Shown: positions 789 to 43,844 of the stretch, in pieces
Layout of the letters: the number at the start of each line of letters is the position of its first letter
Position numbering within the stretch: position 1 is the stretch's first letter
Origin: Hydrogenimonas sp. SS33
Lineage (GTDB): Bacteria; Campylobacterota; Campylobacteria; Campylobacterales; Hydrogenimonadaceae
Length of the DNA stretch: 64,000 nt
Assembly: GCF_040436365.1 (NCBI RefSeq)
Contig: NZ_AP026369.1
Location: 993,501 to 1,057,500 of the forward strand
Reading direction: 5' to 3'
Program-made: the position numbers and the translations under genes
Notes under the pieces: generated by a model
The model's database searches: none
What the model saw: only the letters and a program-made list of their open reading frames with translations
Told to the model about the DNA's origin: nothing

Positions 789-830
789 ATTTTATTTAAA
801 TAGGAGTAATTTTGTCTTGATTAAAATCAA
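789..830 (-). promoter_or_regulatory. FNR/NNR-type box and -10 element upstream of cytochrome c gene
   Basis: TTGATTAAAATCAA at 817-830 is a perfect Crp/Fnr-family palindrome (TTGAT-N4-ATCAA). A TAAAAT -10 hexamer on the minus strand at 794-789 places the start site near 782, which puts the box centre (823.5) at about -41, the class II activator position. A second related box drives the haem-copper genes at 21.4 kb. Confidence 0.7.
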
Positions 831-9707: not shown

Positions 9708-12700
9708 TCAGCTGTGATGGACATCCTGATCGATTTTCAGCGTAACCGTCGGATCGCCGCCGGAGGTAGAGGTGTAGGTGTAGATATCATAACCCCCTTC
9801 CGATGTATGGGTGACATCGTACCCTGCCGGTGCGTCCGGTATATTGACTTTATCACCTCTGTCACCGTCAATAACCAGCGTATTCCTCTCATCGGTCATC
9901 TCTATAACATCATTGAGTGTAAGATTTTTGATTTCATGATTATCGAAAGCGGTGAGATCTATTTTTTCCATGTTTTTGATATGTGTGCCGTCCGGCAGAT
10001 TCGAAAAGTCTATCGTCTCGTTCTCATGAAGAACCAGGGTATCTTCCCCATGCATGCCGTCAACCGTTTTGCCCGGTTCAAACAGATAGGTATCATCCGA
10101 GGAGGCAACCTCCACAGTCAACGTTTTTTCAACGGTTTTCGTATCGATAATCGCACCGTTTTCCATCTCCTGACTGGTCGCTTTGAATGTCAAATCATGG
10201 GACTCGTCGGTTGCGTATCGAAGTGTATCCAACTGCCAGTCGCTCACATTCACACTTGCACCGTCCGATGTCGCTGTATAGCTGTGGCCCGCATCATCAT
10301 ACAGAGTCGACCCTTTTTTGATCCCTTCGACCTCCACAACAAGATTTTCCGATCCGTCCGTGTCAGTCAGTTGCGCGTCCACAGAAATCTCTATATCGGT
10401 CCCCTCTTTGACATGGACTGTTCCGTCATCGTTCAACTCGGTAGCATCGAAAGTGATCTTGTTGATCAAAAAATCATCTCCTTCTCCCGGAGGATAAAGA
10501 CGGATTTCATCGAATGCTTCCCCGTTGGACGGCGCAAAGTGGATCAACGGATCCACCTCGTCACTGCCGTTGCCGATAACAATCTCTTCTACCCGCTCAC
10601 CGTTTCGATAAAACGCCATATCGGCAGTTTCGTCCGGAGCATTCCATGCCAACGCTACATTGACGGAATAGATCGGCTGGTCGAATTTGACGGAAACCTG
10701 TTCGGGGGCATCGGCGTTACTGTTATAGCCGGTCTCTACATCGTCACCGCTGGCCCGTCCTTTGACACCGAAACCGGGAGGATTCCCTCTATGTACACCG
10801 ATCGTTCCTGTCGAACCGTCGGGATTATAAGCAGTTACAGTATATCCGTTTCCGGTTTCATTGACATTATCGCTGTCGATTATGATGGTTTTTGTTTCAG
10901 ACAGAGCTTTGACATCCAATACCGGTGCGTCAGCCACACCATTGGAATCGACGGTCAGGCTCTGTTGTGCCGTTGCAACATTCCCGGCTTCATCGGTTGC
11001 CGTTACCTTGATTTGGTGATTTCCGTCTTCTATAACCGCAGAGGTATTGTCGAAAATCCATTTTCCGTCACTGTCGGCCGTCACTGTTCCGAGTGAAGTA
11101 TCATCAAGGCGAATCTCTACCGTGCTTCCCGGATCAGCTTTTCCCTCGAAAACCAATGTGTTGTCATTGGTAATGAAATCCCCTTCATCTCCGCTGTCTT
11201 CGCTGATCTTTTCAATCGACGCCGTTTCCGTCGTATCCTTCTCGATACTGTCCTCCGCCGTCGCGCTGTTGCCCGCCGCGTCTTCCGCCGCCAGCTTCAC
11301 CGTCACCGTCCCGTCTTTCAGGGAACCCGTATCCACCGTCGTGCTCCAGTTCCCCTCATCATCCACCGTCACCGTCGACGGATCGATCGTGATCGTGTTC
11401 GTACCGTCCGTCACGCTCAGGGCCGTGATGTGCCCTCCCGCCTCGATCCGGCCGCTCAGCTGCGTCCGGGCCAGGTCGTCGTGGCTATCGAGGTAGTCGT
11501 CGTGGCCGCTGTCATCTTTGATATCCACACTCGCGGCGGTCTGCGTATCCACCGTCACGCTGCCGCTGCCCACGCCTTTGTTGCCCGCGGCATCCACCGC
11601 TTCCACCGTGATCTCGTGTTTTCCGTCGGTCAGGCTCTTGACCGTATCGTCGGGAAGCGTCCATGTGCCGTCCCCGTTGTTGGTCGCCGTATAGCTCTCG
11701 CCGTCGATCGTCACGACCACCGTCGCATTCGGATCATCCACACTCCCGCTGATCTCCGGCGTCGCGTCGTTGGTCAGGTCGATACTCTTCACGCTCACGC
11801 TCGGGGCGGTCGTATCCACCCCGTACTGCTCCGTCGCGCTCGCCTCGGCACTGTTGCCCGCCGCATCCGTCACCGTGATCGACGCTTCGACCGTATGGTC
11901 GCTGTCGCCTGTCAGCTCACTGCCCGGCACTGCAACGGAGAACTTCCCGTCGGCGTCCACCTCGCCCTCGTACGCTTTCCCGTTGACCGTCAGCGTCACC
12001 CTGTCGCCCGCTTCGTACTCTCCGCTCACCGTCCCGGTGATACTGACATCGCCGCCCGCCTCGGCCGCGTTGACCACATTGTCATCCGTCACCGCATCCA
12101 GCGTGATCCCCACCGTCGGCGGCGTCGTATCCTTCTCGATACTGTCCTCCGCCGTCGCGCTGTTGCCCGCCGCGTCTTCCGCCGCCAGCTTCACCGTCAC
12201 CGTCCCGTCTTTCAGGGAACCCGTATCCACCGTCGTGCTCCAGTTCCCCTCATCATCCACCGTCACCGTCGACGGATCGATCGTGATCGTGTTCGTACCG
12301 TCCGTCACGCTCAGGGCCGTGATGTGCCCTCCCGCCTCGATCCGGCCGCTCAGCTGCGTCCGGGCCAGGTCGTCGTGGCTATCGAGGTAGTCGTCGTGGC
12401 CGCTGTCATCTTTGATATCCACACTCGCGGCGGTCTGCGTATCCACCGTCACGCTGCCGCTGCCCACGCCTTTGTTGCCCGCGGCATCCACCGCTTCCAC
12501 CGTGATCTCGTGTTTTCCGTCGGTCAGGCTCTTGACCGTATCGTCGGGAAGCGTCCATGTGCCGTCCCCGTTGTTGGTCGCCGTATAGCTCTCGCCGTCG
12601 ATCGTCACGACCACCGTCGCATTCGGATCATCCACACTCCCGCTGATCTCCGGCGTCGCGTCGTTGGTCAGGTCGATACTCTTCACGCTCACGCTCGGGG

Positions 12701-14858
12701 CGGTCGTATCCACCCCGTACTGCTCCGTCGCGCTCGCCTCGGCACTGTTGCCCGCCGCATCCGTCACCGTGATCGACGCTTCGACCGTATGGTCGCTGTC
12801 GCCTGTCAGCTCACTGCCCGGCACTGCAACGGAGAACTTCCCGTCGGCGTCCACCTCGCCCTCGTACGCTTTCCCGTTGACCGTCAGCGTCACCCTGTCG
12901 CCCGCTTCGTACTCTCCGCTCACCGTCCCGGTGATACTGACATCGCCGCCCGCCTCGGCCGCGTTGACCACATTGTCATCCGTCACCGCATCCAGCGTGA
13001 TCCCCACCGTCGGCGGCGTCGTATCCTTCTCGATACTGTCCTCCGCCGTCGCGCTGTTGCCCGCCGCGTCTTCCGCCGCCAGCTTCACCGTCACCGTCCC
13101 GTCTTTCAGGGAACCCGTATCCACCGTCGTGCTCCAGTTCCCCTCATCATCCACCGTCACCGTCGACGGATCGATCGTGATCGTGTTCGTACCGTCCGTC
13201 ACGCTCAGGGCCGTGATGTGCCCTCCCGCCTCGATCCGGCCGCTCAGCTGCGTCCGGGCCAGGTCGTCGTGGCTATCGAGGTAGTCGTCGTGGCCGCTGT
13301 CATCTTTGATATCCACACTCGCGGCGGTCTGCGTATCCACCGTCACGCTGCCGCTGCCCACGCCTTTGTTGCCCGCGGCATCCACCGCTTCCACCGTGAT
13401 CTCGTGTTTTCCGTCGGTCAGGCTCTTGACCGTATCGTCGGGAAGCGTCCATGTGCCGTCCCCGTTGTTGGTCGCCGTATAGCTCTCGCCGTCGATCGTC
13501 ACGACCACCGTCGCATTCGGATCATCCACACTCCCGCTGATCTCCGGCGTCGCGTCGTTGGTCAGGTCGATACTCTTCACGCTCACGCTCGGGGCGGTCG
13601 TATCCACCCCGTACTGCTCCGTCGCGCTCGCCTCGGCACTGTTGCCCGCCGCATCCGTCACCGTGATCGACGCTTCGACCGTATGGTCGCTGTCGCCTGT
13701 CAGCTCACTGCCCGGCACTGCAACGGAGAACTTCCCGTCGGCGTCCACCTCGCCCTCGTACGCTTTCCCGTTGACCGTCAGCGTCACCCTGTCGCCCGCT
13801 TCGTACTCTCCGCTCACCGTCCCGGTGATACTGACATCGCCGCCCGCCTCGGCCGCGTTGACCACATTGTCATCCGTCACCGCATCCAGCGTGATCCCCA
13901 CCGTCGGCGGCGTCGTATCCTTCTCGATACTGTCCTCCGCCGTCGCGCTGTTGCCCGCCGCGTCCGTGACTGTCACCGAAACGGAAATCTCTCCGTCTTT
14001 CAATGAACTTACATCAATACCCGTTACATTGAATTCACCGGTGGTAGGGTTGTAGCGGATCTGTGATGAGGGAATTTCAATCGTTGTGCTTCCGTCAGTG
14101 AGAAGAAGCGTACCGACGGAACTGCCGGGTTGGACTCTGCCCGTTACGGAGATATTGCCGGCTTCCGACAAATTGACAATACCGTCCCCGTTGCCGTCCA
14201 CGATCGAAACCGTATTTTGAATTTCCGGCGTCACGGGAGGATGGACCGGTGGGACAAACGGTGTATGCGCCTCCTCCGTCGGCGGTACATAGACCGGAAC
14301 CGATTCCGGTACAGTGAGCCCTGCTGTTCCTTCCACCGGGCTGAAAGGATCCAGCGGCTGTTCGAGCGTATAGTTGTGCGAGTCGACGGAACGCAGGCCC
14401 GCATTGACGTCGGCCATGGCGTTGGTCCCATTGGCAAACCTGTCTCCCTCCGAGTGGGATGCGGGCATTACATCCTCTTTGCCCAGTGCCGTTTCATCCA
14501 CATCGATATCACCGAACTCTTTCAGAAGCTGGTCGATGGCATCCTCTTTCGAATCCGCTCCGGCACCTGCCAGTGCCGCAGAGACATCGGCTTCCGCCAG
14601 TGTCGCTTCCGTATGCATCGGCTCCACGGATGTGACGGAAGCGTCGAAAAGAACTTCCGCTTCTCCATCGATGACGAAGTGCTCTTTCGTCTGGACCAGG
14701 TCGATGACGATTTTGTCCTGGGGATTGTGGGTAGGGTCGAACACCAGATCGTCCGCATAGATCGGGTCCCCCACTTTGAGCACCCTTTCGCTCCCATCTT
14801 TCGATCTGGCGACGAACTTTCCGACGATCTCTTTGACATAACCTACGATCTGTGCCAT
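9708..14858 (-). CDS. Giant LapA-type adhesin, retention module plus repeated Ig-like domains
   Basis: This 1,716-residue surface adhesin is exported by the neighbouring type I system. Residues 1-75 form the retention-module fold (VGYVKEIVGKFVARSKDG, then LKVGDPIYADDL) that holds such proteins in the outer-membrane pore. SAALAGAGA at 93-101 is a candidate LapG cleavage region, but the classical TAAG is absent. Residues about 220-1240 are Ig-like domains (DAAGNSA boundaries), including three 298-residue units identical at protein level. The C-terminal ~150 residues are Asp/Thr rich, like type I secretion targeting regions, without clear RTX nonapeptides. There is no signal peptide, as expected. 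The ATG follows AAAGGA. Because of the repeats, assembly copy number needs long reads. Confidence 0.92.
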   Translation of the reverse strand: MAQIVGYVKEIVGKFVARSKDGSERVLKVGDPIYADDLVFDPTHNPQDKIVIDLVQTKEHFVIDGEAEVLFDASVTSVEPMHTEATLAEADVSAALAGAGADSKEDAIDQLLKEFGDIDVDETALGKEDVMPASHSEGDRFANGTNAMADVNAGLRSVDSHNYTLEQPLDPFSPVEGTAGLTVPESVPVYVPPTEEAHTPFVPPVHPPVTPEIQNTVSIVDGNGDGIVNLSEAGNISVTGRVQPGSSVGTLLLTDGSTTIEIPSSQIRYNPTTGEFNVTGIDVSSLKDGEISVSVTVTDAAGNSATAEDSIEKDTTPPTVGITLDAVTDDNVVNAAEAGGDVSITGTVSGEYEAGDRVTLTVNGKAYEGEVDADGKFSVAVPGSELTGDSDHTVEASITVTDAAGNSAEASATEQYGVDTTAPSVSVKSIDLTNDATPEISGSVDDPNATVVVTIDGESYTATNNGDGTWTLPDDTVKSLTDGKHEITVEAVDAAGNKGVGSGSVTVDTQTAASVDIKDDSGHDDYLDSHDDLARTQLSGRIEAGGHITALSVTDGTNTITIDPSTVTVDDEGNWSTTVDTGSLKDGTVTVKLAAEDAAGNSATAEDSIEKDTTPPTVGITLDAVTDDNVVNAAEAGGDVSITGTVSGEYEAGDRVTLTVNGKAYEGEVDADGKFSVAVPGSELTGDSDHTVEASITVTDAAGNSAEASATEQYGVDTTAPSVSVKSIDLTNDATPEISGSVDDPNATVVVTIDGESYTATNNGDGTWTLPDDTVKSLTDGKHEITVEAVDAAGNKGVGSGSVTVDTQTAASVDIKDDSGHDDYLDSHDDLARTQLSGRIEAGGHITALSVTDGTNTITIDPSTVTVDDEGNWSTTVDTGSLKDGTVTVKLAAEDAAGNSATAEDSIEKDTTPPTVGITLDAVTDDNVVNAAEAGGDVSITGTVSGEYEAGDRVTLTVNGKAYEGEVDADGKFSVAVPGSELTGDSDHTVEASITVTDAAGNSAEASATEQYGVDTTAPSVSVKSIDLTNDATPEISGSVDDPNATVVVTIDGESYTATNNGDGTWTLPDDTVKSLTDGKHEITVEAVDAAGNKGVGSGSVTVDTQTAASVDIKDDSGHDDYLDSHDDLARTQLSGRIEAGGHITALSVTDGTNTITIDPSTVTVDDEGNWSTTVDTGSLKDGTVTVKLAAEDAAGNSATAEDSIEKDTTETASIEKISEDSGDEGDFITNDNTLVFEGKADPGSTVEIRLDDTSLGTVTADSDGKWIFDNTSAVIEDGNHQIKVTATDEAGNVATAQQSLTVDSNGVADAPVLDVKALSETKTIIIDSDNVNETGNGYTVTAYNPDGSTGTIGVHRGNPPGFGVKGRASGDDVETGYNSNADAPEQVSVKFDQPIYSVNVALAWNAPDETADMAFYRNGERVEEIVIGNGSDEVDPLIHFAPSNGEAFDEIRLYPPGEGDDFLINKITFDATELNDDGTVHVKEGTDIEISVDAQLTDTDGSENLVVEVEGIKKGSTLYDDAGHSYTATSDGASVNVSDWQLDTLRYATDESHDLTFKATSQEMENGAIIDTKTVEKTLTVEVASSDDTYLFEPGKTVDGMHGEDTLVLHENETIDFSNLPDGTHIKNMEKIDLTAFDNHEIKNLTLNDVIEMTDERNTLVIDGDRGDKVNIPDAPAGYDVTHTSEGGYDIYTYTSTSGGDPTVTLKIDQDVHHS
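11232..13963. repeat. 894 bp in-frame tandem repeat, about 3.05 copies
   Basis: The same block begins at 11241, 12135, 13029 and 13923, an exact 894-base (298-codon) period. I saw no difference between the three complete copies. Similarity stops near 13963, where the fourth copy diverges after about 40 bases. Each unit encodes roughly three Ig-like domains. Such identity implies recent duplication or gene conversion and predicts length variation between strains. Confidence 0.9.
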
Positions 14859-14910
14859 CTTTTGATCCTTTCATTCCCCGTTCAGAGAGGGTTCTGTTTC
14901 ATTTTCGACC

Positions 14911-14940
14911 ATTGTACGCAACTTCCGGCTTCACTGTCCA
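14911..14940 (-). promoter_or_regulatory. Candidate sigma-70 promoter of the adhesin gene
   Basis: On the minus strand TGGACA (14940-14935) and TACAAT (14916-14911) are 18 bases apart, leaving about a 45-base leader before the adhesin ATG. A TATAGT hexamer further upstream is an alternative -10 element. Confidence 0.45.
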
Positions 14941-15050
14941 TTGGACCAAAGTACTATACGGTAACAGGCAAAACGAAGCCCCCTGTTTTCCGGAAACCGG
15001 CTTCCTGCCCTTCGGAACCGAAGATTCCGGGGAAAGCCGTACTTATTCCT

Positions 15051-15635
15051 CTATTTGAGCATGGTCACCAGTTCCAGACGGTTGGAGACATGAAGTTTCT
15101 TGAAGATCTTTCCCAGATGGGCTTTTACCGTCCGTTCCGTAATACCAAGCTTTTCTCCGATCTCCCTGTTGCCGTACCCTTCCAACAGAAGAGCCGCCAA
15201 CTCCTTTTCCCTGCTCGTCAAAACATCCGGCAGGGGTTTGCTTTGCTTCTCTTTGCCGGCCATGTCGGCTACCAGGCGGCTCACGAATTCCGGATAGAGC
15301 CACACATTGCCCTCCATGACCGTCTCCACGCAGGCGCGCAGATGCACCGGTTGCATCAAACTGTTCCCGTACCCTTTGACCCCCAGTGCCAAAAGCCGTT
15401 TGGCATTTTCGTAGGTCGGATGGCTCTCCAGAACGATCATCCTCACATCCTCCCGGTTTTGTCCGGAGGAGAGAAACGCCGGAATCTCCGGTGCCGCACC
15501 GGAAAAGTCCGCCACGACGGTTTTGGGGCTGTTTTCGGTATTGAGCTGTTCCACGGCTGCGGGATTCAGGTCGGCCAGCGCCTTTTCCCATCGCCGCAGA
15601 AGAGCCAGGTCATGGGCAAAGAGTTCAAGATGCAT
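15051..15635 (-). CDS. LuxR/NarL-type regulator in the adhesin secretion operon
   Basis: This 194-residue protein has a receiver-like N-terminal half and a LuxR helix-turn-helix (LTSREKELAALLLEGYGNREIGEKLGITERTVKAHLGKIF in two adjoining helices). The receiver keeps an Asp in VVADFSG but lacks the usual acidic pair near the start, so phosphorylation is doubtful. The ATG at 15635 shares one base with the membrane-fusion gene stop (TGATG). CsgD-like biofilm regulators have similar architecture. It probably regulates adhesin or secretion genes; the target is inferred from position. Confidence 0.85.
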   Translation of the reverse strand: MHLELFAHDLALLRRWEKALADLNPAAVEQLNTENSPKTVVADFSGAAPEIPAFLSSGQNREDVRMIVLESHPTYENAKRLLALGVKGYGNSLMQPVHLRACVETVMEGNVWLYPEFVSRLVADMAGKEKQSKPLPDVLTSREKELAALLLEGYGNREIGEKLGITERTVKAHLGKIFKKLHVSNRLELVTMLK

Positions 15636-16969
15636 CAATGCTCCGTAAATATATAGTCTTTGCTGTGCAGCAGCGGTTTGACAAGATAATCGAGTATGGT
15701 CCGTTTTCCGGTAATAATATCGGCACTTACGACCATTCCCGGAATGATTTTCAGCTTTTTCCCTCCGGAGAGCAGGTAGTTGCGGTCCGTTTTGATACGG
15801 ACGATATAGAAGGTCCGGTCTTTTCTGTCCGTCACCGTATCGGGGCTGATGCCGACCACCCTGCCCGGCAGACCTCCGTAGATGGCGAAATCGTAGGCGG
15901 TGAATTTCACCAGCGCCTTCTGGCCCGGATAGATGAAAGCGATATCTTTGGGACTGACCTTCACTTCCGCGATCAGGTTTTTGTCCAAAGGTACGATCTC
16001 AACCAGATCCATACCCGGTTTGACCACCCCTCCGATGGTATGAACATAGAGCTTTTTGACGATACCGTCCACCGGCGAACGGACAACGGTACGGGCCACG
16101 GAGTCTTCGAAGGCTTTGATCTTGGCGGAGATGCGTTCCATCTCACCCAGTGCTTCGTTCATCTCCTTCTCCGACTTGCTCTCGAACTCCAGCTTCGCCT
16201 CTTTGATGCGGCTTCGTATCTCTCCGATGGCCGACTCGATGCGCGGAATGGAAGCCTGGACACTGTCGATTTCCGTTTTGACGGCATTCGCCTCTCTCTG
16301 CAGTTTCAGAAAATCGACCTTCGACTTCACCCCCTCTTTCACCATCGGTTCGCTCATCTTCACCTCTTCTTCGATAAGCGCGTAACTCTTTTTGAGGTTT
16401 TTGAGTTTCTCTCTGGCTTCGACAAGCTGTTCCTCTTTTTGACGCATCTGTTTTTTGAGCGTCTCTATCTGCGCCTTCAGCCGCTGCATGTTGGCTTCGT
16501 AGAGGCTCTTTTCCCGCCTAATCAGGTCCGGATGCTCCTCGGCCAGCGCCTTGTCGAATTTCAGGGGTTTGTGTTTCGCCTGGGCTTCAAGGCGGGCCGC
16601 ACGTGCTGCCAGTTCGTAGTATTTGCTCAACAAACCCGCCAATTCGGAGCGGGACCGCATATTTTTGATACGGAGCAGCACATCCCCTTTTTTGACGGTA
16701 TCCCCCTCTTTTACCGTGATCGCTTCGACGATGCCACCCTCCAGGTTCTGGAGCACCTTGTTCTCTCCCGACGGCACGATTTTCCCGGTAGAACGGACGA
16801 TTTCGTCCACTTTGGCAATGGAGGCCCACAGAAGAAAGAGCGCGACAACCAGCAGCCAGAAATAGAGAACGATGCGGCTTCTTCTCGGAGAGGAGTGGAG
16901 CACGGCGGCACTGAGGCTCTCCAGATAGGCCAGTTCCCGTTCGCTCAGCGACTCTTTACGCTTCACCAC
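15635..16969 (-). CDS. lapC: HlyD-family membrane fusion protein of the type I secretion system
   Basis: This 444-residue periplasmic adaptor has one N-terminal span (about residues 37-58), a lipoyl-like half motif (VKEGDTVKKGDVLLRI), a long coiled coil (residues about 125-295, Glu/Lys rich) and the returning beta-barrel segment (VRSPVDGIVKKLYV). It links the ABC transporter to the TolC-like duct. The start lies inside the last codons of the ABC transporter gene (14-base overlap) and the stop overlaps the regulator start, so the operon is tightly coupled. The symbol is by analogy with LapBCE. Confidence 0.9.
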   Translation of the reverse strand: MVKRKESLSERELAYLESLSAAVLHSSPRRSRIVLYFWLLVVALFLLWASIAKVDEIVRSTGKIVPSGENKVLQNLEGGIVEAITVKEGDTVKKGDVLLRIKNMRSRSELAGLLSKYYELAARAARLEAQAKHKPLKFDKALAEEHPDLIRREKSLYEANMQRLKAQIETLKKQMRQKEEQLVEAREKLKNLKKSYALIEEEVKMSEPMVKEGVKSKVDFLKLQREANAVKTEIDSVQASIPRIESAIGEIRSRIKEAKLEFESKSEKEMNEALGEMERISAKIKAFEDSVARTVVRSPVDGIVKKLYVHTIGGVVKPGMDLVEIVPLDKNLIAEVKVSPKDIAFIYPGQKALVKFTAYDFAIYGGLPGRVVGISPDTVTDRKDRTFYIVRIKTDRNYLLSGGKKLKIIPGMVVSADIITGKRTILDYLVKPLLHSKDYIFTEH

Positions 16970-19112
16970 GGTTCTCTCCTCTCAGTGCCGCCAGCACCTT
17001 CTCTTTGGGGCCGTCCATATGGACCCTTCCCTCATGCATGACGATGACCCTGTCCACAGCGTCCAGGACCGCCATTTTCTGTGTCGCGATCACCACCGTG
17101 CGGTCCGTAAAGAGTGTTTTGAACGTCTGGATGACACGGGCCTCGCTCACCTGGTCCATGGCATTGGTGGGTTCGTCCATCAGGACGATGGGTGCGTCTC
17201 TCAGCAGCGCCCGGGCGATGGCCACACTCTGGCGCTGCCCTCCCGAAAGGCCCATTCCCTGCTCTCCCACCGCCATTTCGTACCCTTTGGGGTGTTTGAG
17301 GACGAATTCATGCACGCCCGCGGCCTCGGAAGCCTTCAGAACCTTCTCGTCGTCGATATAGGGATTGGCGATTTTCAGGTTCTCCTTCATCGTCCCGCGG
17401 AAGAGCTTGACATGCTGGTCCACGTAGGCGATATTGGCCCGCAGGTCCGCCGGGTCGATCTGTTTGATGTCGATATCGTCGATCAGAATGGCCCCGTCGT
17501 CGGGGTCGTAGAGGTGAAGCATCAGTTTCAGTATCGTACTCTTGCCGGACCCGATGCGGCCGATGATCCCCACTTTTTCGCCCGGTTTGATGAGAAACGA
17601 GACCCTATCCAGGGCCGGCCGCTCCTCTTCCGGATAGCGGAAAGTAACCTCTTTAAACTCTATCTTGCCGCTGAAGTGCGGTTTTTGGACAAACTCCTTC
17701 CCCTCGGGACGCTCAACGGGCCGGTTGACGATATCGTCGAGCATGCGGTAGACCGTCTTGACATCTTCGTAATTGGCGATGAGCGAAGCGGCCTGCCCCA
17801 TGGGGGCCACGGTGCGGGAAACGAGAATGACGATGGCGATGAGATCCCCCATCGTCATCTGGTTCTCCTTGATCAGATAGACCCCCACTACGACGATAAA
17901 GACGGTATTGAACTGCACAAGAAAGGACGTGACCGCAGGCAGCGAAGCCGAAAGCAGGCGGGCCGAAAGCGACTTTTCGGCGATCTCCCCGGTCGCCTCC
18001 TCCCATTTCCACTGGACTTTTCCCGCCGCTCCCAGGGTTTTGATGGTCTCCAGGTTGTGCAGCGCTTCGATGAGAATGCCGTTTTTCTGGGCAGCGGCCT
18101 TGTGGGTCGCCTCGATGCGCCGATAGAGCGGACGCCGTATCAGCAGGGCGTAGCCGAGAATGAAAAGGATCGTAGTGATGGGCACCCAGACAATCACCCC
18201 GCCCAGATACCAGATGACCACCAGAAAAAGGAGGGCGAAGGGGATATCGATAATGGCCGTCAAAGTGGCGGAAGTAAGGAAGTTGCGGATACTGTCGAAA
18301 TCTTTGAGATTGCTGGCGAAAGAGCCGATGGAAGGCGGCAGTGCCTTCATCTGCATATCCAGCACCTTCTCGAAAATGACGGAGGACATGATGATGTCCG
18401 ACTTTTTCGCGGCGATTTCGAGAAAATAGGTGCGGATGAATTTCAGAAAGAGGTCAAGAATGTAAATGGTGACGACACCGCCGGCGAAATACCAAAGCGT
18501 CTCCACGGCATGGTTGGGAATGACCCTGTCGTAGACCGTCCGGGTAAACAGGGGGGTCGCCAACACAAAGAGATTGACCAGAATCGAGGCGAAAATCACA
18601 TCTTTGTAGATGGGATAGGAGTGCCTGATACTGTCCCAGAACCAGTGCTTCACCCCCAGGTCGAGCTTTTTGTGCTCCCTGTCGGAATAGTCGTAGACCC
18701 GTTTCAGCAGAAAGCCGTAACCGGTATACTCCTTTTCAAGCGTCTCCAGGTCGACCCATTCATGGGTTTCACCGGCATCGGGCAGAACGATTTTGGCCTG
18801 TGTGCCGTCGTCGGAAAAGCGTTCCAGAATGCAGGCCTGCCGGTTTTTCAGCAGCAGGATCATCGGGAGAAAGAGAGGTGAGATCTCATCCAGCCTTTTT
18901 CTCACCAGGGTCGATCGGAGCCCGGCACGCTGTGCCGCCCGGGACATAAGGCCTCTGGCCTTGTCGATGGAGAAAAGGACCGGTCTGCCATCCTCCTCTT
19001 CGAGGGGAAGGCCGTGAATCAGCGATTCGGCGCTGTAGGGTTTGTGGTAGAGCCTGGTAAACAGTACCAGCGCTTTGAGAAGCGGGTCGTATTCATTATG
19101 CATTTCACTCAT
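16956..19112 (-). CDS. lapB: Type I secretion ABC transporter, LapB type
   Basis: This 718-residue protein contains an N-terminal C39-like domain (about residues 1-140) without the catalytic Cys, a six-span membrane domain (about 160-440) and an ATPase domain with Walker A GRIGSGKST, signature LSGGQRQ and Walker B IVLMDEPT. The inactive C39-like domain is typical of transporters for large adhesins and RTX proteins whose substrates are not cleaved on export. It is preceded by the TolC-like gene (32 bases) and overlaps the HlyD-type gene. Confidence 0.92.
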   Translation of the reverse strand: MSEMHNEYDPLLKALVLFTRLYHKPYSAESLIHGLPLEEEDGRPVLFSIDKARGLMSRAAQRAGLRSTLVRKRLDEISPLFLPMILLLKNRQACILERFSDDGTQAKIVLPDAGETHEWVDLETLEKEYTGYGFLLKRVYDYSDREHKKLDLGVKHWFWDSIRHSYPIYKDVIFASILVNLFVLATPLFTRTVYDRVIPNHAVETLWYFAGGVVTIYILDLFLKFIRTYFLEIAAKKSDIIMSSVIFEKVLDMQMKALPPSIGSFASNLKDFDSIRNFLTSATLTAIIDIPFALLFLVVIWYLGGVIVWVPITTILFILGYALLIRRPLYRRIEATHKAAAQKNGILIEALHNLETIKTLGAAGKVQWKWEEATGEIAEKSLSARLLSASLPAVTSFLVQFNTVFIVVVGVYLIKENQMTMGDLIAIVILVSRTVAPMGQAASLIANYEDVKTVYRMLDDIVNRPVERPEGKEFVQKPHFSGKIEFKEVTFRYPEEERPALDRVSFLIKPGEKVGIIGRIGSGKSTILKLMLHLYDPDDGAILIDDIDIKQIDPADLRANIAYVDQHVKLFRGTMKENLKIANPYIDDEKVLKASEAAGVHEFVLKHPKGYEMAVGEQGMGLSGGQRQSVAIARALLRDAPIVLMDEPTNAMDQVSEARVIQTFKTLFTDRTVVIATQKMAVLDAVDRVIVMHEGRVHMDGPKEKVLAALRGENRGEA

Positions 19113-19144
19113 TCTTCCCGCCTCCCGCTTCGATGACTGCCGCT

Positions 19145-20566
19145 CTATTTCCTCTTTTCGATATCTTTTTCAATATTTTGCAGTACCCGATCGTTCTTTT
19201 CGAGTATATCGGCAGGAAGCGTATCGGGTTGAGCCTCTTTCTTTGCGGCGAGATCCACTTTGGCGTAATAGTCGTGGGACCGCCCCATGACAAACGGCAC
19301 CATGGTTCCCATGGCGTCGAGAATCCGGAACTTGGAAAAGAGATAGTTGTACCGTGCGGTAACGATCTGGGATTTCGCGTTGATCAGGTCGTTCTGGGCG
19401 GAAAGAAGGTCCAGCAGTGAGCGTCGGCCCATTTCGTACTCTTTCGAATAGAGGCGCAATGTATTGACCGCATGGCGTTTGTACTCCTGCAGATAGTCGA
19501 GCTTCGTTTTCAGATGGGTGTAAGCCGCCCAGGAGAGGTCGTAGCTCTCGACCGTTCTTCGTTTGAGGTCCAGGTCTGTCGAAACCTCCTTCTGTATCTT
19601 GCTGATGCCTTTTTGAATCGCGGCCCGGTCCGCGAATCCGTTGAAAAGGTTGTAGGTCAGCGCCGCGGTCACCCGGTAGCGGTCATCATGCCCGTCGCTC
19701 TCCCCGCCCATGTTGTAGTTCCAGGAACTTCTGGCACGCAGGTCGACTTTGGGATAATAGCGGCTCTTTTTCTCTTTGTAATCCTCCTGGGCCACCTTGA
19801 TGTTGTAACGCTGCACCAGCAGGGAAGGATTGTGCTCCAGCGCGAACTTTCGCCCCTCGTCGTAGGATTTGGGCACAGGCAGTGCGGTATCCGGTGCGAC
19901 AAGGGAGTCGACATCCACCTTTTTGCCGTAATAGTATTTGAACTGGTAAAGCGCATCCTGAAGGTTGTTTTCCTGGACCACATAGTTGGAGCGCGCCAGT
20001 GCGAGGGAAGCCGCTGCCTTCTCCATCTCCGATTTTGTCGTGAGCCCGCCTTTGTAGAGTTTGTCGACTTTGTTGAATATCTCTTCGTTGATATCGATAT
20101 TCTCTTTGGCAATTTTGAGCAGCTCCCGGTTTTTGATCACCTCAAGGTAGTAATCGACCAGCCTGAAACCGATATCATCCACCGTTTCTATATAATGAAA
20201 CGCCGCCGCCATCACTCTCGCTTTCTGGGTGCTGATCTGGTGTGTGGTACTCCAGCCGTTGAAAACGTTCTGGGTCAGCAGAAGAGAGTTTTCATAGATG
20301 GCGTAGTTGTGCCAGTCATAGTCGGTATAGAGATTGTTTCCCCATTCACGACCCACCCCGCCGATGTAGTCGAGCTTCGGAAGCCAACCGCTTTCGGCGA
20401 TGGTGACATCTTCGCGCGTGGCATTGTAGTTTCTGATCTGTTCCACCACCGCCGGATTGGTCCGGATGGTCTCTCCCATGGCCTGCCTGAGTGTCAGCGC
20501 CTGCGCCGTGACACTGCCAATGCAACATGCCGTAAAAACGACAAAAAAAGTTTTGACATTGAACAT
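19145..20566 (-). CDS. lapE: TolC-like outer-membrane channel of the type I secretion system
   Basis: This 473-residue protein has a signal peptide (FFVVFTACCIGSVTAQA) and two TolC repeats of long helices, e.g. KSEMEKAAASLALARSNYV and GRRSLLDLLSAQNDLINAKSQ. I chose the ATG at 20566, five bases after AAGGGG, over the GTG six bases upstream. The C-terminus has an extra charged tail (about 35 residues). It is the first gene of the secretion operon TolC-ABC-HlyD-regulator and completes the adhesin export path to the cell surface. Confidence 0.9.
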   Translation of the reverse strand: MFNVKTFFVVFTACCIGSVTAQALTLRQAMGETIRTNPAVVEQIRNYNATREDVTIAESGWLPKLDYIGGVGREWGNNLYTDYDWHNYAIYENSLLLTQNVFNGWSTTHQISTQKARVMAAAFHYIETVDDIGFRLVDYYLEVIKNRELLKIAKENIDINEEIFNKVDKLYKGGLTTKSEMEKAAASLALARSNYVVQENNLQDALYQFKYYYGKKVDVDSLVAPDTALPVPKSYDEGRKFALEHNPSLLVQRYNIKVAQEDYKEKKSRYYPKVDLRARSSWNYNMGGESDGHDDRYRVTAALTYNLFNGFADRAAIQKGISKIQKEVSTDLDLKRRTVESYDLSWAAYTHLKTKLDYLQEYKRHAVNTLRLYSKEYEMGRRSLLDLLSAQNDLINAKSQIVTARYNYLFSKFRILDAMGTMVPFVMGRSHDYYAKVDLAAKKEAQPDTLPADILEKNDRVLQNIEKDIEKRK

Positions 20567-20658
20567 ACCCACCCCTTTTGTTATATTGTCCGGAGAATAA
20601 ATGAGTTAATATTATCCAAAAAAAAACTATGGCTCTCTTATTTATATGAAATTCCGTG

Positions 20659-21409: not shown

Positions 21410-21451
21410 TTGATTTTGGTCAAAAATAACGGAATACGGCTCTTCTATACT
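21410..21451 (+). promoter_or_regulatory. FNR/NNR-type box and promoter of the haem-copper oxidase operon
   Basis: TTGATTTTGGTCAA (21410-21423) matches the Crp/Fnr palindrome with one mismatch. TATACT (21446-21451) is a strong -10 element that puts the start site near 21458, so the box is centred at -41.5, the class II position. No -35 hexamer is needed for this promoter type. Control by oxygen limitation or NO is implied. Confidence 0.75.
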
Positions 21452-21482: not shown

Positions 21483-22076
21483 ATGTTTCAGACATCATTG
21501 GAGCTGCTCAGGTTTCACTGGGCGGCCTATACGATCTACGCGCTGCTGATCGTCTCGGTCGTGGCGTGGTTCGGCATCAACCTGGTCCGCAAGGAGAAGG
21601 TCAAGTCGATCGTACGGATCCCGTTTTACGGGTATATCGCCTTTCTCGTCGCCGGCGGCGTCGGGCACCACATCTTCACCTACAACGCCATCCCCTGGGT
21701 GGCGGAAGATATCATGCGCCACGACATCACCGCCGACCGCACCTACGACATCGAGATCGAACGCCACAAGTGGAAGCTTCCCGAAGAGCAGATGGTGGCC
21801 AACATGGGCGAAAAGGTACGTTTCAACGTCAAAAGCCACGACCTCACCTACGGCTTCGGCCTCTTTCGCAAGGACGGCACGATGGTCATGCAGATGCAGG
21901 TGGTCCCCAAACACGAAAACGACATTCTCTGGACCTTCCACGAGTGCGGCAAGTTCGACCTGACATCCACCGAATACGCCGGGCCGGGCCAGTATGACGA
22001 AGAGACGGGTGAAGACCGAATGCTCGTCAAAGACGCCCTCGTCGTCAACTGCAACGACAAATTCGCAAGCAAGTGA
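21483..22076 (+). CDS. Cytochrome c oxidase subunit II-like protein without CuA ligands
   Basis: This 197-residue protein has two N-terminal membrane spans (about residues 15-35 and 48-68) and a periplasmic cupredoxin domain (about 85-190), the layout of subunit II of haem-copper oxidases. The canonical CuA motif CxExCGxxHxxM reads TFHECGKFDLTS, leaving only one of the copper ligands in that loop, so a normal dinuclear CuA site cannot form. The ATG follows AAGGAG. The catalytic subunit starts 12 bases after this gene. The altered motif fits an NO reductase or a quinol-using enzyme rather than a cytochrome c oxidase. Confidence 0.82.
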   Translation: MFQTSLELLRFHWAAYTIYALLIVSVVAWFGINLVRKEKVKSIVRIPFYGYIAFLVAGGVGHHIFTYNAIPWVAEDIMRHDITADRTYDIEIERHKWKLPEEQMVANMGEKVRFNVKSHDLTYGFGLFRKDGTMVMQMQVVPKHENDILWTFHECGKFDLTSTEYAGPGQYDEETGEDRMLVKDALVVNCNDKFASK

Positions 22077-22087
22077 GGAGGACCGAC

Positions 22088-23785
22088 ATGGAAAACGTAC
22101 AGAAAAAACCCTTTATGGAACAGTTGCTCCACGGCACCAATTTCGACCCCGACAGTCTGAGCGCCCTGCAAAAGATCACCCTGCGGGCCGTGGTCATGAG
22201 TTTCCTCTTCTTCGGCCTCGTCGCCATCGAGGGGATGATCATGCGAATGGTACAGACCGGCCCCACAAGCCCTCTGCCGGAGATGTTTTCAAAACCGGAC
22301 CACTACTTCTCCATCATGACGGTGCACCCGATCGTCGGCATCTTCGGCTCGACCTACCAGCTCGTCTTTGCCGCCTTCATGTTCCTGGTGCCCTACCTGA
22401 CGAAAAAGCCGCTTTACAGCATCAAACTGGCCAACTTCGTCTGGCTCAGCATCACCATCGGCACGGCTTTGGCGTGGATCGCCGGCTTCATCTGGCACTA
22501 CGCGCCGCTCTACACCCTCTACTGGCCGCTGCCCGCCGACTTCCAGCAGTTCAGCGTCATCGGCGGCTTCGTCTTCATCATCGGTATTGCCCTTATCATG
22601 ATCGGCACCATCGGCTTCATCTACAACATCTACGCCACCATCTTCGCCCGAACCGGCGTGCATAAGAACAAGACGACCAAAGAGCTGCTCATCTCCGGTT
22701 TCGGCATCGACGGCCTGATGAACCTCATCTACAAGTTGATGGGCAAGCCCCCCTACTCCAAGGAGCCGGCACTCAGTCTTCCCGTCGTCGCCATCTTCCG
22801 CGGCACCGTCGATACCTTCCTGGACGCCATCGTCATTCTGGGCGCGGGCATCCTGGTACTGGTCTACCTCATCGCCGACGTGGGCGGCGCCTCCTGGGAC
22901 GTGCACGCCGTCGACTCGCTGCTTTATAAAAACTACTTCTGGTGGGGCCTCGACCTGGTCGCCGACGGTCTGGTCCTCATCTACGTCGCAGGTTCCTGGT
23001 ACCTGCTGGCCACCATCATCACCGGCCAGAAACTCTTCATGGAGAATGTCGCCCGTGCCGCGCTGCTGCTGGAACTCTTCGTCAGCTGGATGGTCTGGAG
23101 CCACCACCTCCTGGGCGACCAGCCCCAGCCCGAGATGATGAAACTGGTCTCCGGCGAAATGGTCACCGCCTTCGAACTGCTGACCCAGGGGCTGGCCCTC
23201 TTCATCACCCTGGTGACTCTCTGGAAAGCGCGGCCGCTGAAAATGAGCCCCGAACTTGCCTACCTGCTGGGCGGCCTCGTCGGCTTCGGCCTCGCCGTGC
23301 CCGCCGGTATCATCCAAGCCGACATGGGCCTCAACCGTGTCCTGCACAACACCCAGTGGATCAGCTTCGCCCATTTTCACATCGCGCTGATCGTCGGGCT
23401 CTACATGACGCTTTACAGCGCCCTTTATGTCCTGTGGCCGCTGGTGACCAACAATACGAAGCTCTTCAGCAAAAAGCTGACCTGGGCCCACTTCTGGCTC
23501 TACCTCATCGGCGGAATCGGCATGGGCGCCTTCGCCGGCATGGCGGGGCTGGACGGCATGCTTCGCCGCCACCTCTACGTTAACGGCGAATTCCACGGCT
23601 GGATGGTCCTGGCGGCGATCTTCGGCTCCATGGTCCTGATCGCCTGGTTCCTCTTTTTGTACAACATCGTCATGAGCGTCGGCATCAAGGGGCTCATCGG
23701 CATCTTCAAACCGGCCAACAACGACATCGCCACCTTCGGCATCGAAGAGGAGCCCGAACCGGCCCCCGCGGCGGTCAAGGCATGA
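22088..23785 (+). CDS. Haem-copper oxidase superfamily catalytic subunit, gNOR-like NO reductase
   Basis: This 565-residue membrane protein has about 12-14 spans. Haem-ligand positions are visible: His80 (TVHPIVG) for low-spin haem, His339-His340 (WSHH) for the non-haem metal, and His429/His431 (AHFHIA) for the two haems. At the helix VI position, where oxidases and cNOR have the third metal-binding His (GHPEVY or HLWVEG), it has Asp289 (GLDLVADG). From memory, the NO-reductase family called gNOR, found in Campylobacterota, replaces one active-site His with Asp; I assign it on that basis. The ATG at 22088 has GAGGAGGA upstream. Oxygen reduction cannot be excluded from sequence. Confidence 0.78.
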   Translation: MENVQKKPFMEQLLHGTNFDPDSLSALQKITLRAVVMSFLFFGLVAIEGMIMRMVQTGPTSPLPEMFSKPDHYFSIMTVHPIVGIFGSTYQLVFAAFMFLVPYLTKKPLYSIKLANFVWLSITIGTALAWIAGFIWHYAPLYTLYWPLPADFQQFSVIGGFVFIIGIALIMIGTIGFIYNIYATIFARTGVHKNKTTKELLISGFGIDGLMNLIYKLMGKPPYSKEPALSLPVVAIFRGTVDTFLDAIVILGAGILVLVYLIADVGGASWDVHAVDSLLYKNYFWWGLDLVADGLVLIYVAGSWYLLATIITGQKLFMENVARAALLLELFVSWMVWSHHLLGDQPQPEMMKLVSGEMVTAFELLTQGLALFITLVTLWKARPLKMSPELAYLLGGLVGFGLAVPAGIIQADMGLNRVLHNTQWISFAHFHIALIVGLYMTLYSALYVLWPLVTNNTKLFSKKLTWAHFWLYLIGGIGMGAFAGMAGLDGMLRRHLYVNGEFHGWMVLAAIFGSMVLIAWFLFLYNIVMSVGIKGLIGIFKPANNDIATFGIEEEPEPAPAAVKA

Positions 23786-23813: not shown

Positions 23814-23908
23814 GTGAATAGTGAACAGTAAACAGTAAACAGTGAACAGTGAATGGAGAAGGCGATTATGCGCCTCCCCAATGACTAATGACCAATAACC
23901 AATGACCA
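23814..23908. repeat. Two blocks of heptamer tandem repeats
   Basis: 23814-23855 holds six copies of GTRAAYA (GTGAACA/GTAAACA variants). 23881-23908 holds four copies of ATRACYA (ATGACCA/ATAACCA variants). A short inverted repeat lies between them. The blocks occupy the gap between the NO-reductase-like gene and the next gene on the same strand. Similar heptamers occur at 43753-43780. Confidence 0.8.
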
Positions 23909-23917
23909 GGATGTAAC

Positions 23918-24523
23918 TTGACCAACCTTGAACGCGTCGCCCGTGAAATCAAAGATGTCGGGCTCTACGATCTGATTTTGCAGGATGTCCAGAAAATCGC
24001 GGGGACCTCCCGCCCTACGGTGGGGCAGATCGAGGAGATTCTGAAGAGCCATCCCGAGATTCTGAGAGACTACAAACAGACCAACGTGGAGTACAACCTC
24101 AGCAACATCCACCTCAAAGAGATCCCGACCGGCGCCCTTTCGGGATCCTGCCTGCAAAAGGCGCGGCGCTTCAACGGCAACCTGAAGACCCTGAAATCCA
24201 TCGAAAAGTACACCCTCGATTTCGAGCACTCCTCGACGCTGGTCATCATCTTTTCGGTGGAGTTTTTCGTCCTCTTTTCGGTGCAGTATTTTATCGTCCT
24301 TCTCAACCTCAAGGCGTACCAGTGGTACATCTACGGCCTCTTCGCCCTCTCCATCGCCGTGGCGTGGTGGTACGCCAAGAAAGAGAAGAAGAAGTACGCC
24401 GCCGAAAACGCCCGTTTCGAGAAGCTCTACGACGAAACGCTCGCCCTGCTGGAAGAGATGGAAGCTAAAGGGTGTGTGAAAAAGGAGGATCTCTGGGTCA
24501 TGGAGAGCGACGAGCATGTCTGA
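23918..24523 (+). CDS. Two-span membrane protein of unknown function
   Basis: This 201-residue protein starts at a TTG six bases after AGGAT, inside the end of the heptamer-repeat region. Residues 1-100 are soluble and helical; two membrane spans lie at about 105-130 (TLVIIFSVEFFVLFSVQYF) and 135-155; the tail is a charged helix. I do not recognise the family. It overlaps the next gene by eight bases, so they are coupled, and both follow the haem-copper genes. Confidence 0.68.
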   Translation: MTNLERVAREIKDVGLYDLILQDVQKIAGTSRPTVGQIEEILKSHPEILRDYKQTNVEYNLSNIHLKEIPTGALSGSCLQKARRFNGNLKTLKSIEKYTLDFEHSSTLVIIFSVEFFVLFSVQYFIVLLNLKAYQWYIYGLFALSIAVAWWYAKKEKKKYAAENARFEKLYDETLALLEEMEAKGCVKKEDLWVMESDEHV

Positions 24524-25031
24524 ACCCCAAACCGTCCGACTCTTTTTGCCGTGGGACGAAGCCACCTTTCTGGAGGGGGCAAAAATCGCCTACGACTACG
24601 ACATGCGCCACACATGGCGGCGTTATGCCGGGTGGTTTTTCATCGCCCTGACCCAGTTCGGCGTCGTGGATGCCCTCCGCCACAAGGCGATCGGCCTGCT
24701 ACTGGTCTCGACCCTGCTGGTCATCTACTGGTACGGCCTGCGCTGGCCAATGCGCCGGCGGATGCTGCGCCGTTTTTTCCGCGCCCACCCCGACGCCGGC
24801 AAAACGCTGGAGATCTCCCTCTTAAAAGAGGGGGTCTGCGTCAAGGAGGGGTGCATCCCCTGGGAGCGGTTCTCTCGGGCCCTTCTTTCACCCAAAGGGT
24901 ACTTGCTGCAGATGGAGGCGGACGCTTTTATCTACCTGCCCCGCCGCATCTTCCCCGACAGCGAAACCCGCAACGCCTTCGTCGCCGAAATACGGGAGAA
25001 AATCCCTTCCGTCGTCAAAATTGACGAATAA
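24516..25031 (+). CDS. YcxB-like membrane protein
   Basis: This 171-residue protein has two closely spaced membrane spans (about residues 38-55 and 58-76), then a short basic stretch and a C-terminal soluble beta-rich domain with KEGCIPWERFSRALLSPKGYLL and YLPRRIFPDSETRNAF, a pattern typical of YcxB-like proteins, whose function is unknown. It starts within the previous gene. Association with the NO-reductase-like enzyme is positional only. Confidence 0.7.
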   Translation: MSEPQTVRLFLPWDEATFLEGAKIAYDYDMRHTWRRYAGWFFIALTQFGVVDALRHKAIGLLLVSTLLVIYWYGLRWPMRRRMLRRFFRAHPDAGKTLEISLLKEGVCVKEGCIPWERFSRALLSPKGYLLQMEADAFIYLPRRIFPDSETRNAFVAEIREKIPSVVKIDE

Positions 25032-25055: not shown

Positions 25056-25562
25056 ATGAAAAAACATTTCGTCGTAGCCGTCTATAACCGTCCCGAAAAA
25101 GCCAAAGAGGTCGTCCACCGCCTGCTCGATGCCGGTGTCGACAAACAGACCGTCTCACTTGTCTCCCGGAGCAACGAAGATGATGCCGAAAAGGTCGAGG
25201 TGGAGAAGGTTGACAGCGATGTCAAAGTTTGGGGAACACAGGGAGCCCTCTGGGGCGGTCTCATCGGCGCGCTGATGGGCGGCGCCTTCTTCATCGTCCC
25301 CGGTTTCGGCCCCATCGTGGGTGTCGGGCCCATAGCCGCCGCACTGGCGGGGGCCTTCGGCGGTGCCATGACCGGTGCCGCCGTCCTCGGCCTCGGAGAC
25401 GCCCTCGTCGAGTGGGGGATGGGAGAGGTCGAAGCCAAACGATACGAAGAGCTGGTGGAAAAAGGAAAAGTCCTGGTTATCGTCCATGGTAAAGAGGAGG
25501 CGGTCGCAAAGGCCGAAGCCCTACTCAAAGAGACCGATGCCGAAAAGGTGGAACTGCACTGA
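25056..25562 (+). CDS. General-stress-type protein with central glycine-zipper membrane segment
   Basis: This 168-residue protein begins like general-stress 17M/DUF1269 proteins (FVVAVYNRPEKAKEVVHRLLDAGV), followed by a Gly/Ala-rich hydrophobic hairpin (about residues 65-115: GALWGGLIGALMGGAFF, then GPIAAALAGAFGGAMTGAA) and a C-terminal segment ending VLVIVHGKEEAVAKAEALL. AAGGAG precedes the ATG. Members are thought to insert into membranes under stress. It is the last gene of the rightward group and ends at a hairpin facing the globin gene. Confidence 0.72.
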   Translation: MKKHFVVAVYNRPEKAKEVVHRLLDAGVDKQTVSLVSRSNEDDAEKVEVEKVDSDVKVWGTQGALWGGLIGALMGGAFFIVPGFGPIVGVGPIAAALAGAFGGAMTGAAVLGLGDALVEWGMGEVEAKRYEELVEKGKVLVIVHGKEEAVAKAEALLKETDAEKVELH

Positions 25563-25610: not shown

Positions 25611-26735
25611 CTAACCGGCCTTCATACGCAAAAAGAGGGTCAGTTTCATCGTTTCGGCCAGCAGGTCGATACCCTCCTGTATATAGATCCGGTTGCTCAC
25701 ATCTTTCAGGATGATACAGAGGTAGACAATGGCCGATTCACGGTCGAAATAGAGGTGCTTGACGATGTCGCACGCCTCTTCGCCGGGCTCCTCGTCGAGA
25801 AACTCCAGCCGGTCGATGGCCCAGCCGTAGGTATCGGTGAGAATGGTTTCGATGTTGTTCTCTACATGGGCGCGGTCGATCTGGGCATTTTTCATAACAC
25901 TTCTGCGGTAGACGATGTCGGTCATGGCCCGCACCGCCGCCAGAGAGCTGGAGAGGCTCAGGTAGGCCGTGACGCCCAGGTCGTTGAGGGGCCGTATAAT
26001 GCTCCGTTCCAACGCCTCCGCCGCCCGCCCGCTCTCCTGGGGCGAATCGGCATGGAGCAGCTCGGTACAGTGGCGCCGGATGACGGCCAGGTCGAGCCCC
26101 GCCTCTTTCAGCACCCCACGGTAGGGTTTGAGGTCATCGAGACTTTCGAAGAAGCGGTCGGCATGTGCTTCGTCGGGCTTGCCCCCGCCCTCTTCCTGCA
26201 TGGAAGCCCGGCACACCATGTAGGCGCGGTGGAGGCGGTTGACGGCGAGAAAGAGGTCGTTGCCCCGGTAGGGGGAGTGTTCCAGACTCTTCTGGGCGAA
26301 ATACTCCTCCCCCATGATCGCTTCGGCGACTTTGAGATACTTGATGATGAGCTTCAGGTAGGGCAGCAGGCTCGGCTCTTTTTTCGAGAGGGCCAGAATC
26401 AGTTCGGAGAGCAGGTGGTAGCCGTAGGACATGTAGAGGGGGTCGAGGCGGATATGGTAGTGGGCGATCCCCACTTTCGCGATCTTGGCGTAGAGTCTGT
26501 CGTCGAAGGGTTCAGAGAGAAGGGAGGCCACGAAGTCGATCTGCTTGCGCTTGAGCTCGGGGATCCGCTCTTCTGGGATGAAGTCTTTGAACTCCTCTTT
26601 CTCCAGCAGCCGCTCGTAGAATCTGTCCATGATCTCCTGCGCATAGGGGGCAATCTTCTCCAGGGCCTCTTTGCGCATCGGCAGATCGTTCTCGTCCAGT
26701 TGGTAGATCTCTTTGATCAGGGCGATTTTGCTCAT
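25611..26735 (-). CDS. Globin-coupled sensor-type haem protein
   Basis: This 374-residue cytoplasmic protein has an N-terminal protoglobin-type globin domain (about residues 15-175). KVGIAHYHIRLDPLYMSYGY matches the GxxHxxI proximal region, making His92 the likely haem ligand. The C-terminal ~190 residues form no output domain I recognise (no GGDEF, kinase or MA domain); they are helical with NNIETILTDTYGWAIDRLEFL. It could sense oxygen or NO. It directly follows the cyclic-nucleotide-binding gene (one-base gap), which in turn is coupled to a K+ channel. Confidence 0.8.
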   Translation of the reverse strand: MSKIALIKEIYQLDENDLPMRKEALEKIAPYAQEIMDRFYERLLEKEEFKDFIPEERIPELKRKQIDFVASLLSEPFDDRLYAKIAKVGIAHYHIRLDPLYMSYGYHLLSELILALSKKEPSLLPYLKLIIKYLKVAEAIMGEEYFAQKSLEHSPYRGNDLFLAVNRLHRAYMVCRASMQEEGGGKPDEAHADRFFESLDDLKPYRGVLKEAGLDLAVIRRHCTELLHADSPQESGRAAEALERSIIRPLNDLGVTAYLSLSSSLAAVRAMTDIVYRRSVMKNAQIDRAHVENNIETILTDTYGWAIDRLEFLDEEPGEEACDIVKHLYFDRESAIVYLCIILKDVSNRIYIQEGIDLLAETMKLTLFLRMKAG

Positions 26736-43752: not shown

Positions 43753-43844
43753 GTGAACAGTGAACGGTGAACAGTAAACAGATAGCAGGAGGATGTTCGA
43801 TGCCCCTCTCACCTTCTCACCTTCTCACCGTCCCACCGTCTCAC
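43753..43844. repeat. Heptamer and octamer tandem repeats between adaptor and TolC-like genes
   Basis: 43753-43780 has four heptamers GTGAACA, GTGAACG, GTGAACA, GTAAACA, the same unit as at 23814-23855. 43805-43844 has five octamers of the form CTTCTCAC/CGTCTCAC. The two blocks fill most of the 137-base gap inside the efflux operon. Confidence 0.8.

Follow-up and report, generated by a model that had tools for sequence, protein, structure and literature searches.

The gNOR family was put forward in 2008 as a group of nitric oxide reductases in Sulfurimonas, Sulfurovum and Persephonella (Sievert 2008, as cited in Table A4 of PMC8756737). In that table, gNOR has an Asp at the diagnostic site of helix VI, which is Tyr in oxidases, Glu in cNOR and qNOR, Gln in eNOR and Asn in sNOR, and its proton channel is given as absent. 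The same source describes gNOR as an enzyme of two subunits, in which subunit II is a cupredoxin and not a haem c protein (PMC8756737), and a published annotation describes it as quinone-oxidizing and non-electrogenic (PMC8906906). Two better-studied systems provide reference positions. In cNOR, Glu211 and Glu280 are reported to be critical for activity and proton uptake (PMC3431322), and the quinol site of the bo3 oxidase includes Arg71, Asp75, His98 and residue 101 (Gln101) (PMC10256718).

The DNA that we analysed (the window) is a stretch of 64,000 nt from Hydrogenimonas sp. SS33 (NZ_AP026369.1, positions 993,501-1,057,500 of the forward strand; assembly GCF_040436365.1). It contains two open reading frames on one strand, with the coordinates that a first-pass annotation of this DNA had given, and we assign their products to gNOR, a named family predicted to convert NO to N2O (Table 1). 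The assignment is based on the residues and the host genera described below, and membership in the family appears well supported. In the reading frame of subunit I, a GTG at 22073 is open as a start in addition to the ATG at 22088. We favour the ATG because the sequence GAGGAGG is found immediately 5′ of it; this choice gives a protein of 565 aa and retains the residue numbering of the first-pass annotation.

Table 1. Positions, within the window, of the gNOR operon, its control box and the residues discussed in the text.
Feature	Position	Strand	Details
FNR/DNR-type box TTGATTTTGGTCAA	21410-21423	+	exact match; starts 73 bp 5′ of start codon
gNOR subunit II	21483-22076	+	197 aa; membrane-anchored cupredoxin without CuA
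TFHECGKFD, residues 151-159 of subunit II	21933-21959	+	preceding strand, variable; alignments, AlphaFold2
Former CuA loop STEYAGP, residues 162-168 of subunit II	21966-21986	+	both Cys replaced by S/A, loop His gone; alignments
gNOR subunit I, haem-copper catalytic subunit	22088-23785	+	565 aa; PF00115, 2e-51
Stretch E48-H72 of subunit I	22229-22303	+	invariant E48, R53, H72; alignment with bo3
His80	22325-22327	+	helix II low-spin haem ligand; alignment
Asp289	22952-22954	+	helix VI CuB/FeB His position; MAFFT and hhalign
Asp293	22964-22966	+	position of the oxidases' cross-linked Tyr / cNOR Glu211; MAFFT and hhalign
His339-His340	23102-23107	+	helix VII metal ligands; alignment, 80 relatives
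Glu363	23174-23176	+	opposite cNOR Glu280 / qNOR Glu559; MAFFT and hhalign
His429 and His431	23372-23380	+	helix X ligands of high-spin and low-spin haem, respectively; alignment
gNOR partner gene 1, membrane protein	23918-24523	+	201 aa; 54/55 loci
gNOR partner gene 2, YcxB-like (PF14317) membrane protein	24516-25031	+	171 aa; 48/55 loci

A further feature of gNOR is an Asp in place of one metal-ligand His. In the window protein, the helix VI motif is G287-L-D289-L-V-A-D293-G. The first-pass annotation had noted the haem ligands and the His-His pair, and had interpreted Asp289 in GLDLVADG as replacing the metal-ligand His of helix VI; our analysis confirmed these points. H80, H429 and H431, the H339/H340 pair, D289 and D293 are invariant in 16 of the 16 diverse relatives that we aligned, and the motif FWWG[LF]DLVADG and the WSHH pair occur in 80/80 relatives from named public genomes. 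Both MAFFT, with six families (A, B and C oxidases, cNOR, qNOR and gNOR), and profile-profile hhalign, against cNOR/qNOR, place D289 opposite the metal-ligand His, which is present in every other family compared. The annotation had also considered that the ligand might be found at a shifted position, but this was ruled out, as the helix VI stretch is without His and two alignment methods put D289 at the site.

Other features of the active site went unmentioned in that annotation. In the MAFFT alignment, D293 occupies the site of the cross-linked Tyr in A and B oxidases and of a catalytic Glu in cNOR and qNOR; Glu363 corresponds to the second catalytic Glu of these NO reductases, at a position that is Ile, Leu or Val in the oxidases aligned. 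In a comparison with cNOR/qNOR using hhalign, which was weak overall (probability 29%, E 6e-4), the pairs formed with the NorB of the host were D289-H207, D293-E211, H339-H340 with H258-H259, and E363-E280. The position of the K-channel Lys is Ala370 in the MAFFT alignment. Oxidases of the cbb3 type carry their own Tyr in helix VII, and in the subunit I sequence Tyr is absent from this site as well as from the helix VI site. With both the Tyr and the K-channel Lys missing, gNOR is expected not to pump protons and to be inefficient at reducing O2. The AlphaFold2 model of subunit I has a mean pLDDT of 69, with low confidence in the active-site region, and we took no active-site geometry from it; its match to haem-copper chains (Z about 30-33) supports the fold only.

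Subunit II has the cupredoxin fold that had been predicted for it: its AlphaFold2 model (pLDDT 87) matches E. coli bo3 subunit II (7n9z_G; Z 10.9, 178 aligned residues, rmsd 5.1), a match tied for the top, as other CuA-type subunits score level with it. The first-pass annotation was also right that CuA is missing, but not about where the site had been. It had pointed to TFHECGKFD, a variable segment (NHNG, HKNG and so on in relatives) that occupies a beta strand and the residues ahead of it. Three alignments (a PDB search, the family alignment and an alignment to CuA-bearing subunits) rule out this region as a degraded CuA loop, and place STEYAGP, approximately 11 residues later, opposite the C-x-E-Y-C-G-x-G-H of CuA subunits. 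This loop lacks both Cys and the loop His, and the first CuA His (in SxDVxHGF) is Tyr123 in gNOR. The loop, as STEY[SA]GP, is invariant in the 16-member alignment and was found by pattern search in 78/80 loci, with no pattern match in the remaining two. The annotation had further considered electron entry without CuA to be unusual. However, the loss is not odd, because the quinol oxidase bo3 has lost the same ligands (the loop of CyoA is S-G-N-Y-T-G), and gNOR is annotated as oxidizing quinone (PMC8906906).

Subunit I offers a candidate site for quinol. In the MAFFT alignment, Glu48 of gNOR occupies the position of bo3 Asp75, and His72 that of bo3 His98; both are invariant. Neither residue has an equivalent in the A-type cytochrome c oxidases compared, while a His at the bo3 His98 position also occurs in one B-type oxidase. 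Arg71 and Gln101, which complete the set of four quinol-site residues in bo3, are unmatched in gNOR.

We placed the catalytic subunit by maximum likelihood in a tree that covers 28 proteins; 11 are gNOR sequences, and cNOR and qNOR are the only other NO reductases represented. The gNOR proteins form a single clade (100/100) outside cNOR/qNOR, cbb3, A and B, and group with the A and B families (99/98), the order among the three being unsettled (64/46). The first-pass annotation had called for such a phylogeny, had argued against a cytochrome c oxidase and had suggested gNOR. The separate clade, the missing CuA and the residues D289 and D293 agree with its argument, and its suggestion fits the residues, the tree position outside oxidases and cNOR/qNOR, and the host genera. 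Relatives are found in Sulfurimonas and Sulfurovum (e.g. loci L065 and L051), Nitratifractor, Hydrogenimonas and other genera, and thus in two of those for which gNOR was proposed. The arrangement of two subunits with a cupredoxin as subunit II is likewise seen in the window pair, by alignment, AlphaFold2 and structure match. Within gNOR, a known family that is so far only proposed as an enzyme, the window protein is an unremarkable member.

Some of these data could also be read in other ways. The haem ligands, the His-His pair and the fold are all kept, A and B oxidases come closest to subunit I in profile similarity, and subunit II is similar to its counterpart in the bo3 quinol oxidase, as might be expected if the enzyme were an unusual oxygen reductase (a quinol oxidase) in which one CuB His has become Asp. 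We consider this very unlikely, given that Tyr is missing at helix VI (Asp293) and at the cbb3-type site in helix VII, that the K-channel Lys is Ala and Glu363 is NOR-like, that gNOR is associated with nirS, nor and nos genes (see below), and that the host has a cbb3 oxidase for O2. Known NO dismutases are derived from qNOR, which is far from gNOR in the tree, and both catalytic acids of NO reductases are matched (D293 and E363); a different N-oxide reaction, such as NO dismutation, is thus extremely improbable, even though the His-His-Asp site is unlike that of cNOR/qNOR and gNOR is described in the literature examined as proposed, not characterised.

The operon consists of four genes, two more than the first-pass annotation had mentioned, with partner gene 2 overlapping partner gene 1. 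Among the 55 loci with room for further genes, partner gene 1 is directly 3′ of subunit I in 54, and partner gene 2 is present in 48. We also searched a sample of 298 Campylobacterota genomes, of which 31 have gNOR; this count leaves out matches with 24-29% identity, which resemble ordinary oxidases and align mostly over the C-terminal half. Partner gene 1 is found in 27/31 gNOR genomes and 0/267 others (one weak match, E 3e-4, was discounted), and all 12 of the genome matches for partner gene 2 are in gNOR genomes, each adjoining partner gene 1. Partner gene 1 is missing from four gNOR genomes, among them the most divergent branch (L031, L033 and L034), and in L031 a short open reading frame for a membrane protein is located 3′ in its place. 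In the partner 1 protein, a hydrophobic segment from residue 104 is nearly invariant, as would be expected of a packed subunit, and the C-terminus has the pattern (D/E)(D/E)H(V/I). No description of either partner gene was found in the literature examined, outside whose scope the main gNOR papers lie. The two partner proteins are probably accessory or assembly subunits.

Other elements surround these genes. The gap that separates the subunit I gene from partner gene 1 holds short tandem GTGAACA repeats (23814-23853), which recur 20 kb away, at 43753-43781. A gene at 25056-25562 (+), which is near gNOR in only 5/55 loci, encodes a membrane protein that has a YflT domain and weakly resembles ActD of alternative complex III. 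At 25611-26735 (-), 0.6 kb past the operon, is a gene for a protoglobin-domain (PF11563) protein with a C-terminal extension, possibly a gas sensor. We set aside the idea that it is the NO sensor of the operon, as it is encoded on the opposite strand. On the other side of the operon, an open reading frame of 1716 aa at 9708-20572 (-) contains repeats spaced 894 bases, and is followed by apparent type I secretion genes for an outer membrane efflux protein (by Pfam) and an ABC exporter (by sequence only).

Upstream of subunit II, the centre of the FNR/DNR-type box TTGATTTTGGTCAA is about 41.5 bp 5′ of the transcription start that would correspond to a -10-like TATACT (21446-21451). By chance, 0.33 matches to such a box are expected per 64 kb. 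Across the family, a TTGAYN4RTCAA box is found 5′ of subunit II in 57/72 loci, mostly 66-80 bp before the start codon; the corresponding rates are 2.6% in control 200-bp tiles and 0.7% after shuffling of the upstream regions. In the host, boxes of the same type also occur 5′ of nosZ and near the norCB-nirS cluster, which contains a Crp/Fnr-type regulator gene of its own. The regulator acting at the gNOR box is predicted to be of the FNR/DNR type. The window contains a second exact box of this type at 817-830 (+), TTGATTAAAATCAA.

The gNOR genes are found together with genes for denitrification. The genome of the host encodes a cNOR beside a cd1 NirS approximately 37 kb from gNOR, as well as NosZ and cbb3. 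In counts that, like their p-values, ignore shared ancestry, NirS is present in 21/31 gNOR genomes versus 8/267 others, cNOR in 26/31 versus 17/267, and NosZ in 24/31 versus 64/267. NirS is below threshold in 10/31 gNOR genomes. In some genomes gNOR is clustered with nirS and norB, and in four it is 3.5-13 kb from norB. None of the 298 genomes has NirS without any NO reductase, and in one with NirS and NosZ (G130, a draft that is 99% complete, where a missing contig could hide another enzyme), gNOR is the sole NO reductase detected. Since the host already has cNOR, gNOR is not needed for its denitrification. It might instead detoxify NO, being induced by NO or low O2 alongside a respiratory cNOR, which would alter its role but not its chemistry. 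The frequent presence of cNOR in the same genomes, the ten gNOR genomes without NirS and the lack of an evident proton channel favour this idea, while the denitrification-type control box, the clustering with nirS and norB in some genomes and the genome with NirS, NosZ and gNOR alone oppose it; we regard it as quite possible, though short of probable.

The survey also revealed other relatives of these enzymes. Outside the window, the host genome encodes a haem-copper-like protein (L005, C1:113791-114849), below the Pfam cut-off, that keeps the haem His residues of helices II and X but appears to be without the helix VI His and the His-His pair, and is perhaps a non-catalytic relative. Divergent cNOR-like proteins with 37-41% identity to the host NorB are present in G128 (C1:393083), where one occurs beside an ordinary cNOR, and in G251, G284, G175 and G291.

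We consider it highly probable that the best explanation of the locus is a gNOR operon encoding a membrane-bound quinol NO reductase of the haem-copper superfamily, under FNR/DNR-type control. In the mechanism that we propose, menaquinol would dock near the low-spin haem, at a bo3-like site formed with E48 and H72 of subunit I. With this route of entry, CuA would not be needed, and subunit II would be structural. The low-spin haem (H80/H431) would hand electrons on to the high-spin haem (H429) and to a non-haem metal coordinated by H339, H340 and D289, and at this site two NO molecules would be coupled to N2O. D293 and E363 may supply protons or bind the metal, like Glu211 and Glu280 of cNOR. 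The partner proteins would serve as accessory or assembly subunits, and an FNR/DNR-type regulator would turn on the operon together with other denitrification genes. Tentatively, and with more doubt than confidence, we extend this proposal to a quinol NO reductase of three or four subunits, in which the family-specific partners would be needed for activity or for loading the unusual His2-Asp metal site, and in which NO reduction would have evolved anew within the oxidase side of the superfamily, using the pair of catalytic acids that cNOR also has.

Our analysis adds to the picture of gNOR the two partner genes, which may be known already, the control box, and the matches of E363, E48 and H72, and these make the family easier to test. 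In particular, the control site and the partner genes conserved along with gNOR offer concrete starting points for testing it biochemically or genetically for the first time. The family is widespread in Campylobacterota of vents and sediments, often alongside cNOR, and may affect N2O output, and its His2-Asp site would probe how far NO reduction needs a three-His metal site.

Among known systems, B-family (ba3-like) oxidases share the haem-copper core with gNOR and join it and the A family in the tree. However, A and B oxidases have three CuB His and the helix VI Tyr, where gNOR has D289 and D293, and the CuA in subunit II of B-family enzymes, which characterizes cytochrome c oxidases, is lacking. 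The cbb3 oxidases are separated from gNOR by the tree, in which it is outside the C clade. cNOR (NorBC) and qNOR (NorZ) resemble gNOR in the acidic residues at the Glu211 and Glu280 positions, but have a His3-Glu site, with His at the D289 position, no cupredoxin subunit II and a distant clade of their own. bo3 (CyoAB) shares with gNOR a cupredoxin subunit II without CuA ligands and, at quinol-site positions, a His and an acidic residue, but differs in its three CuB His, cross-linked Tyr, K-channel Lys, Arg71 and Gln101, and in belonging to a separate clade. From gNOR (NorGH) as described we found no differences, and the window pair has in common with it the helix VI Asp, the two subunits, the cupredoxin subunit II and the occurrence in Campylobacterota (PMC8756737, PMC8906906).
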